Of a stretch of 64,000 bases of DNA, positions 46,392 through 47,940 are shown piece by piece. The DNA is taken from NCBI RefSeq assembly GCF_000145255.1, contig NC_014394.1, positions 2,418,001-2,482,000 of the forward strand, in the 5' to 3' direction. The stretch comes from Gallionella capsiferriformans ES-2 (lineage in GTDB: Bacteria; Pseudomonadota; Gammaproteobacteria; Burkholderiales; Gallionellaceae). Position numbers and translations under genes: made by a program. The notes beneath the pieces were generated by a model. That model did no database searches. It saw only the letters and a list, made by a program, of their open reading frames with translations, and had not been told where the DNA came from. The stretch's first letter is position 1. Every line of letters begins with the position of its first letter.

Positions 46392-47165
46392 ATGAACACT
46401 GAAACCAATGTAACTCCAAGAGTCGTCGTCAAAGATCTGAACTTCTTTTACGGCAAAGCGCGCGCGCTCAAAGACATCAACCTGACCATCGCTGACAAAA
46501 AAGTGACCGCCTTCATCGGCCCGTCCGGTTGCGGAAAATCCACGCTGCTGCGCACCTTCAACCGCATGTACCAGCTCTATCCTCATCAAACCGCGACCGG
46601 TTCTATCATGCTCGATGGATGCAACATTCTGGACAAGGGGCAAGACCTCAACAAATTGCGCGCCAAGGTCGGCATGGTGTTTCAAAAACCCACGCCGTTC
46701 CCGATGTCGATTTATGACAATATCGCCTTCGGCGTGAAACTCTACGAAAGCCTCTCCAACAATGAGATGGACGAGCGCGTAGAATGGGCGCTGAAGAAAG
46801 CCGCACTTTGGACTGAAGTCAAAGACAAGTTAAAACAAAGCGGCATGAGCCTGTCCGGTGGTCAGCAACAACGTCTGTGCATTGCGCGCGCAATTGCCGT
46901 CAAACCCGAAGTGCTGCTGCTCGATGAACCGACCTCGGCGCTGGATCCGATTTCAACCGCTCACATCGAAAAACTGATCGACGAATTGAAGGAAGACTTC
47001 ACGATCGTCATCGTCACCCACAACATGCAACAAGCCGCACGCGTGTCAGATTACACGGCCTATATGTATCTGGGCGACCTGATTGAATTCGGAGACACCA
47101 GCACCGTATTCACCAACCCTAAACGCAAAGAAACAGAAGATTACATTACGGGTAGATTTGGTTAA
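46392..47165 (+). CDS. pstB: Phosphate ABC transporter ATP-binding protein PstB
   Basis: A 257-residue ATPase with Walker [11 protein letters not shown], the signature [10 protein letters not shown] and Walker [12 protein letters not shown]. Its last residues E-D-Y-I-T-G-R-F-G are the conserved PstB end. The DNA for that end is the 5' arm of a strong hairpin and is repeated twice more downstream (47141-47327). No phoU follows: the next feature is a terminator. Confidence 0.97.
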
Positions 47166-47327
47166 TTTACCCGTAATGTAACAGTGAAACAAAAGTCGGA
47201 CATAAGCTGAAGTACTATATAACTGGCAGATTCGGTTAATCTGACAGTTATATAACAGTGAAACAAAAGTCTGAGATAAGCTGAAGTATTACATTACGGG
47301 TAGATTCGGTTAATTACCCGTTATATA
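47141..47327 (+). repeat. Tandem hairpin repeats carrying the pstB 3'-end code (about 2.5 copies)
   Basis: Copy 1 is 47141-47213, copy 2 is 47214-47287 and copy 3 is 47288 to about 47327. Copies 1 and 2 consist of a hairpin plus a linker with AACAGTGAAACAAAAGTC, then two variable positions, then ATAAGCTGAAGT. In copy 1 a perfect 14-bp stem (47141-47154 with 47168-47181) is extended by inner pairs to a 5-nt loop; its 5' arm contains the last codons and stop of pstB. In copy 2 the 5' arm (47216-47232) pairs with 47238-47254 with one mismatch. All copies can be read Y-I-T-G-R-F-G-stop. Copy 3 lacks the linker and runs into the terminator. The function is unknown. Confidence 0.85.
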
Positions 47328-47335
47328 GCAGATGT

Positions 47336-47363
47336 AAAAAAGCCCGGCATGCCGGGCTTTTTT
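47336..47363. terminator. Rho-independent terminator after the pst repeats
   Basis: A-run, then GCCCGGC and GCCGGGC around an AT loop, then a T-run. It ends the pst transcript after the hairpin repeats and, being symmetrical, can also serve the convergent glycine-zipper gene whose stop is at 47383. Confidence 0.9.
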
Positions 47364-47382
47364 ACACGAAATCAAGGCAAGC

Positions 47383-47940
47383 TTAGTTGCGTTCACCCTG
47401 ACGGTAATGCCTGTCATTGTATTGCCCGCCCTGATTGCGACCTGATCGAGTCTGATCCTCAATCACGCTAATACCCACTTTGATCGTACTCCCGGGCTGA
47501 TAGGGTAGCGTCGTGGTAGCTTCCTGCCCGTTATAACGGTAAGTCACGGTATAACCCTTGATGACATCGCGATAATTGTCCACGTCACGACACCGCTGCC
47601 CCTGCTCGGTGCGCGCTGGCTGATCCGGATTGGCAATCCGGTCACCGACCACTGCACCCGCTATGGCACCCGCCGCCGTCGCGACGGTTTGGCCGTTGCC
47701 ACCGCCCACCTGATTGCCCAGAATACCGCCGGCAATCCCGCCTAACACTGCACCGCCAATCGAACGCTCCTTAGGTGCGCTCTGCACATTTTCATTCCAG
47801 CATTCACGGCGCGGCTCATTGACCCGTTCATAAACCGGCGTGCTAGAGATCACTCTGGCCGTATCAACCAATTCGGAGGCATAAACAGAACCGCATAAAG
47901 ACAAGAGACTCAACGCAAACAGACTTTTTTTCATTTTCAT
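47383..47940 (-). CDS. Glycine-zipper 2TM-domain envelope protein
   Basis: A 185-residue protein with a signal peptide (K-K-S-L-F-A-L-S ... V-Y-A, cleavage near residue 21). The glycine-zipper region at about 60-100 has G-G-A-V-L-G-G-I-A-G-G-I-L-G and A-G-A-I-A-G-A-V-V-G-D. The soluble tail at about 120-165 has Y-T-V-T-Y-R-Y-N-G. This is the 17-kDa surface antigen/2TM family, usually outer-membrane associated. There is no lipobox cysteine at the predicted cleavage site. It is upstream of nothing obvious on its strand. Confidence 0.83.
   Translation of the reverse strand: MKMKKSLFALSLLSLCGSVYASELVDTARVISSTPVYERVNEPRRECWNENVQSAPKERSIGGAVLGGIAGGILGNQVGGGNGQTVATAAGAIAGAVVGDRIANPDQPARTEQGQRCRDVDNYRDVIKGYTVTYRYNGQEATTTLPYQPGSTIKVGISVIEDQTRSGRNQGGQYNDRHYRQGERN

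Follow-up and report, generated by a model that had tools for sequence, protein, structure and literature searches.

The pstB gene of Gallionella capsiferriformans ES-2 was located at 46392–47165 (forward strand) of the window, i.e., the whole stretch of 64,000 nucleotides that was analysed; its extent was taken from the list of open reading frames and from relatives. The features named next lie on the same strand. The last codons (Tyr-Ile-Thr-Gly-Arg-Phe-Gly-stop, from 47141) form the 5' arm and the loop of the first of three tandem hairpins, hereafter H1. Copy 1 (47141–47181) is composed of the live pstB end and a complementary arm, and is adjoined on its left by a GA dinucleotide (47139–47140), the putative insertion point as judged from the sequence and from the GA/CA count (48 of 49) given below. 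It is followed by a linker (47182–47214), by copy 2 with a displaced and differently spelled pstB end (47215–47255), by a second linker (47256–47288) and by copy 3, a displaced pstB end with a chimeric 3' arm (47289–47328). The linkers are read as diverged forms of a dispersed element, E, the first of them by position and partial likeness; the E model does not reach it. A palindrome rich in G+C and bearing A and T tracts, which by eye resembles a terminator, was found at 47333–47366, so that the array sits between this palindrome and the pstB stop; the palindrome was absent from the output of the terminator scan, which requires a loop. A convergent ORF of 185 amino acids with a glycine-rich middle lies further on (47383–47940, reverse strand). 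Among the matches listed, DNA just 3' of the array resembled DNA 3' of pstB in some array-less relatives, e.g., at loci L029 and L019.

The initial annotation had described tandem hairpins built from the pstB end and spaced by 73 and 74 bp; three copies were indeed present, starting at 47141, 47215 and 47289, and the start-to-start distance was 74 bp in both cases. The paired changes reported between copies 1 and 2 were recovered: C-G to T-A (47144/47178 to 47218/47252), T-A to A-T (47147/47175 to 47221/47249), G-C to T-A (47150/47172 to 47224/47246) and T-A to C-G (47153/47169 to 47227/47243); the differences on the coding side of Y-I-T-G-R-F-G fall on third codon positions only, as had been stated. 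Two uncompensated differences, absent from that description, were also found (47215/47255, C/A; 47226/47244, G/A). The third copy exists as annotated, but is a chimera and more than merely partial: its 5' arm is almost identical to that of copy 1, whereas its 3' arm agrees in the outer half with copy 2. When folded individually, copy 1 gave −23.2 kcal/mol (z −8.1), copy 2 −16.3 kcal/mol (z −6.8), and copy 3 folded poorly (z −1.6); for the whole hairpin stretch behind pstB the fold z was −8.7. The pstB site was the sole blastn match in its own genome (single contig, 3,162,471 bases), and no dispersed linker copies were found there, the linker pattern matching the two pstB linkers only. Matches to this pattern in genomes G008, G033 and G036 were set aside, their layout being unlike that of the pstB array (reversed control: 1 match, in G033).

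Copies of the pstB hairpin were found in related genomes, in keeping with the initial annotation; the closest named records include several Gallionella and Gallionellales MAGs. Among 60 pstB genes (distinct ends, the window's own included), a complementary arm lies directly 3' of the stop in 26 (11–15 of 15 bases), and the remaining 34 lack it (no more than 9 of 15 bases); locus L044, counted among the 34, carries a decayed array and was grouped with arrays in the codon comparison. Pairing of 95.6% of the cells was observed in the first-copy hairpins of 24 genomes (25 rows, L063 being left out as no E follows it), a percentage that is partly built in because only hairpins with 13 or more of 18 complementary positions were chosen. 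The covariation anticipated by the initial annotation proved strong in this set on the main measures: two-sided changes, 75 vs 25 in shuffles; covariation score, 0.436 vs 0.159 shuffled, slid versions reaching 0.09. Two of the five measures were not above shuffles (pairs with two-sided change, 7 vs 6.5; further pair types, 23 vs 21.4). A matched change was also seen between the window and its sister G054 in an otherwise nearly identical unit.

Arms of the pstB type are confined to pstB ends and the arrays there (exact arm pattern, 71 genomes, coordinates compared with those of pstB genes); the 11 arm matches outside the coordinate placement were nine further pstB ends, a pstB paralogue in G013 and part of a G020 array split between contigs. 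This restriction points to homing, or to transfer together with the gene, and not to random landing. Among the matches listed, a pstB hairpin with an E-like linker was found outside the window's family at L072 (G094) and L101 (Burkholderiales MAG26), which suggests that the pstB site is used more widely. On two contigs of G020 (L429, contig C51; L430, contig C22) the pstB hairpin is seemingly interrupted by another repeat, and the assembly breaks there. Downstream of pstB at L028 and L052, again among the matches listed, inverted TTCCCGCGAAAGCGGGAA repeats are found, which we take to be akin to CGTC-type/dRS3 REPs.

Element E was first seen as a second hairpin between pstB ends in the longer array of G027 (L013); a search with this hairpin returned many further sites in the same genomes. 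The sequence of E follows the form C-NNY-GNA-GRC-stem-GYC-GNA-RNN-A, in which the inner stem varies; longer versions bear a side hairpin, and some copies are reduced, e.g., to CGGCGTAGCCA. The E model matched in 42 of 81 genomes and 10 of 33 genera; the fixed pattern gave 64 matches in 19 of 61 genomes (reversed control, 0). The free R and Y of the pattern pair in 60 of these 64 matches (31 A-T, 28 G-C, 1 G-T; 4 mismatches), and it is on this test that the covariation of E rests, not on the alignment of 24 E copies (A1), the pairing test of which is partly circular, most of the copies having been selected with a pattern in which the outer pairs are required. The window's linker may be read, from its sequence, as a diverged member of this family. 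A known structured RNA family was rejected: with Rfam 15, no match at gathering score was obtained for 46900–47700 (best, 34.4 of 55 bits), and eight E-bearing loci gave only a tRNA and a c-di-GMP riboswitch.

Directly 5' of E stands H1, a hairpin of almost any sequence. For 90 E copies (score 19–20, fixed start pattern, out of at least 130; background of the E scanner, 1 match per 12,456 shuffled bases), an H1 scoring at least 7 was found upstream of 49, vs 34 of 1000 random places; at a score of at least 13 the counts were 20 of 90 and 0 of 1000. The dinucleotide to the left of the 49 well-defined H1 was GA in 38, CA in 10 and GG in 1 (random places: GA 6.0%, CA 5.2%); with distinct H1 starts counted once (n = 71), GA was found in 44 and CA in 12. 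Three of the ten CA borders are the end of a preceding E; the other seven are not preceded by E. The H1 + E unit measures 55–96 bp in 47 of 49 cases and 128 bp in two, and a unit of 55–96 bp leaves no room for a gene. The bases after E are mostly (A/C)(A/T)A.

Two loci, L013 and L301, each have a unit (61 or 60 bp) nested in another E; its removal restores a complete E without loss or duplication of bases (scores of 20 and 17 out of 20). These two clear cases show, at the level of sequence, insertion that leaves the target unduplicated. The nested unit of L015 is alike and one base short (score 14), that of L041 is incomplete (score 15), and three further candidates (scores 12–13) were rejected as nested units. 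The units of L198 (G042) are identical and in tandem. At L198 and at L208 (G022) an aminotransferase-like gene end is perfectly duplicated around E; L208 contains a second E with an insert in the inner stem.

Beside genes, H1 holds the last codons and the stop of the gene. Such ends were recorded for pstB; for dksA (EKQIAK-stop), an aspartate-aminotransferase-like gene (ALERLAKALS-stop), smpB, hypD, a second aminotransferase gene and an acetyl-CoA-synthetase-like gene, all named from the C-terminus; and for a gene ending in KVKDFFGQ-stop. Several of them recur across genomes. Two variants were met in which the intact copy lies downstream of the unit. In L234, L258 and L306 (G020, G032 and G037) the unit follows CTTGA within a copy of a tRNA-Ser 5' half, which is repeated further on and is part of an intact tRNA-Ser(tga) in L234 and L306; ARAGORN gave no tRNA on L258. 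In L205, L223 and L290 (G007, G040 and G038) the unit stands behind a shortened copy of a radC-like gene start, the intact start lying downstream; the radC-like cases are 5' rather than 3' regeneration. Neither variant could be reduced to one simple insertion.

The origin of the live gene ends was examined in pairs of relatives. In the closest pstB pair with and without an array (G053/G050), 7% of the body codons differ vs 7 of the 8 last codons, all silently; in the next two such pairs the body differs by 8% and 13%, and 6 of the 8 last codons differ in each. The numbers of identical codons before the border were 6, 14 and 14 in the three pairs. The displaced copy behind E in G053 agrees with the intact end of G050 in 22 of 25 bases, and the next 60 bases in 54, vs 17 of 25 for the live end of G053. 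The first displaced copy of G011 differs from the pstB end of G003 in a single codon out of 7, vs 5 for the live end. In the aminotransferase gene of G013, ALERLAKALS-stop occurs twice and is followed by LKQALERMHKAIA and a stop, the intact C-terminus of G007; in that of G027 the displaced end continues into TTTTCTGCA, which trails the intact end of G008. The displaced ends thus resemble the intact ends of G007 and G008, with related sequence downstream. The aminotransferase body of G013 counts against this, 81 of 364 codons differing from G021 vs 101 from G007.

The dksA genes fit end replacement more weakly than pstB and the aminotransferase. Eight of them were taken as arrays or remnants; for three of these (G032, G013 and G018) there is a close array-less relative, from which 4, 5 and 5 of the 7 last codons differ, vs 20, 25 and 24 of 113 in the body, and the relatives of the other five are distant (40–53 of 113) and decide nothing. 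Four array-less pstB pairs also count against replacement: 2.75 of the 8 last codons differ vs 1.43 expected from the body, a fast change that may be due to older cassettes or to relaxed codon choice. A displaced copy was recognised by pattern in 18 of 27 array genes; set against the live end, the best copy lay nearer to the closest array-less relative in 10 genes and farther from it in 2, with 6 ties, most of these relatives being too distant to decide and the choice of the best copy favouring the replacement claim. Simple target duplication, in which the new end would be a copy of the old one, was rejected, as the new ends are spelled differently. For pstB in G053/G050 and G011/G003 and for the aminotransferase in G013 and G027, the comparison indicates that the live gene end was probably supplied by the element and the old end displaced.

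We estimate at about 0.7 the probability that the pstB array consists of stacked miniature cassettes of two hairpins, each made up of H1 with the last codons of the gene and of E, which would likely be mobile and would replace gene ends. The anatomy, the dispersal of E, the GA or CA to the left of H1, the clean nested insertion and the displaced ends matching the intact ends of relatives were seen in the sequence. Each unit would enter cleanly after GA at the gene end, just before the old end; the gene would then read into a new, differently spelled end, and the old end would be pushed behind the unit. H1 and E would be read as folded single-stranded DNA by an enzyme acting in trans and cutting after GA or CA, perhaps an HUH-transposase-like enzyme or another structure-reading recombinase. 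The new ends would arrive from other lineages, each cassette family homing to its own gene; the gene likely keeps working after the insertion, and older ends remain as fossils. Of the two suggestions of the initial annotation, a 3'-UTR RNA element or a mobile unit that regenerates the gene end, the second was the better one and is supported by the relatives.

Ordinary homologous recombination, importing pstB ends and repeats from other species with the repeats no longer moving, is considered unlikely. It would agree with the foreign look of the new ends and with arrays that differ among species (among the matches listed), but in all three closest pairs the change sets in within 6–14 codons of one common GA border, and the nested units represent clean insertion away from gene ends.

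A structured 3'-UTR RNA, with hairpins under selection for terminating or protecting the pst transcript and with copies arising by tandem duplication, is regarded as quite improbable. The location of the hairpins between the pstB stop and the terminator-like palindrome, the strong stems, the covariation and the matched change between the window and G054, in a unit otherwise nearly the same, are as such an RNA would have them; E at many unrelated places, the GA/CA border, the units nested in E and a displaced copy nearer than the live end to the relative's end are left unexplained by it, and 34 of the 60 pstB genes lack the arm. Covariation is not proof of selection on RNA, since hairpins of folded single-stranded DNA, or ready-made units from other species, would give the same signal. 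Replication template switching, in which a strand turns back on the gene end to give X, then X' and then X again, the turn being made at E, is given very little weight and was rejected as the sole cause: the order X – X' – E – X resembles a turn-around product, and identical tandem units are present at one locus (L198), but E is a conserved family at unrelated places, and a new end that differs from the old one in 7 of 8 codons, all silently, is not its copy.

For the cassettes, a mover was sought among known transposases. Y1 transposases were found in 47 of 61 genomes, G006 (3 E) and G022 (9 E) being without any, and E stood beside a Y1 gene in none of the 25 loci inspected (flanks of ca. 1.5 kb, regular-expression scan; more than 100 Y1 matches in all), nor were RAYT genes flanked by copies of E in these loci. 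A RAYT (Y1) as the resident mover is thus unsupported, the presence of Y1 being out of step with E; an IS91-like Y2 transposase was rejected also, Y2 transposases being absent from the E-rich G013, G025, G027 and G034.

IS200/IS605-type elements make no target duplication, and mini forms of them exist. The H1 + E unit resembles such a mini element in that insertion takes place at a short fixed site and does not duplicate the target (L013, L301; GA/CA). Hairpins near both ends and strand-specific insertion beside a short site are described for the type in excerpts of PMC8266576. The unit differs in that its left hairpin is hypervariable and carries gene ends, and no transposase partner was matched in the searches. 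In the arrays of integron cassettes the most recent unit is the one closest to the entry point, and attC recombines as a folded strand; its core sites are RYYYAAC and GTTRRRY. The arrays of H1 + E units presumably share the position of the newest unit and a site read as a folded strand; an integron attC was rejected, as the E core GRCTAAC ... GTTAYGY (alignment A1) misfits the attC core when compared by eye.

Prophage e14 of E. coli, according to excerpts of PMC11148124 and PMC6379469, inserts inside the conserved icd gene and brings a new 3' end, the old end (icdC) being displaced behind the element; the duplicated segment of 165 bp has 12 base exchanges and two conservative residue changes. 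As proposed for H1 + E, a new gene end is supplied and the old one is pushed behind, with the difference that e14, in the same excerpts, is a 15-kb prophage, and H1 + E is 55–96 bp of two hairpins and gene-free; an integrase gene, expected inside e14-type elements, was not found in the units, which at 55–96 bp (47 of 49) or 128 bp (2 of 49) have no room for it. By this analogy we conclude that the cassettes would work like e14 at icd, without a gene of their own.

REPs, in the excerpts of PMC3733652 and PMC8266576, are small palindromes that often lie 3' of genes; flanking ORFs often take their stop codon from GTAG REPs, the CGTC REPs have CCA-like tails at their ends, in some cases a REP lies within a longer palindrome, and a TnpAREP cuts after CT or CA. 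The small size, the palindromic form and the frequent location downstream of genes are shared by H1 + E. E differs in its GNAG with a free second base and in the second, variable hairpin (H1); the REP tag, an unpaired GTAG or CGTC at one end of the palindrome, was not found in E, whose GNAG takes all four bases at N and lies partly inside a longer paired stem. Carried or displaced gene ends are not described for REP/TnpAREP in those excerpts. Rickettsial RPE and Yersinia YPAL are mobile repeats, short and palindromic, that insert into genes or abut them, RPEs adding peptide inside genes and YPALs making target duplications of 3–26 bp (PMC2229807, in part); unlike for H1 + E, a recoded end of the target gene is not described in that part of PMC2229807. 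A direct target duplication of the MITE type was not observed, the flanks of nested units yielding, once joined, a full E without any repeated bases. Both short palindromic repeats and elements that restore gene ends have been described before; a combination of the two in gene-free, gene-end-carrying hairpin cassettes of 55–96 bp did not turn up in the open-licence literature, judged by titles and abstract openings.

Gene-free hairpin cassettes of ca. 55–96 bp could, as a tentative proposal drawn from the sequence comparisons and possible rather than probable, form a new class of mobile DNA that crosses species and serves one gene each, the last codons being both address and camouflage, conserved ends being rewritten mostly silently and a layered record of former ends being left. 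Two known things would be joined unexpectedly, the gene-end-restoring trick of a prophage being done by DNA of the size of a REP. If true, this would explain gene-end hairpins that covary while keeping their codons; the silent recoding, and sometimes the altered C-termini, of core genes would be a product of selfish DNA, and an enzyme that recognises folded DNA by its structure would be indicated. The displaced ends would then constitute a fossil record that is readable by comparison alone.
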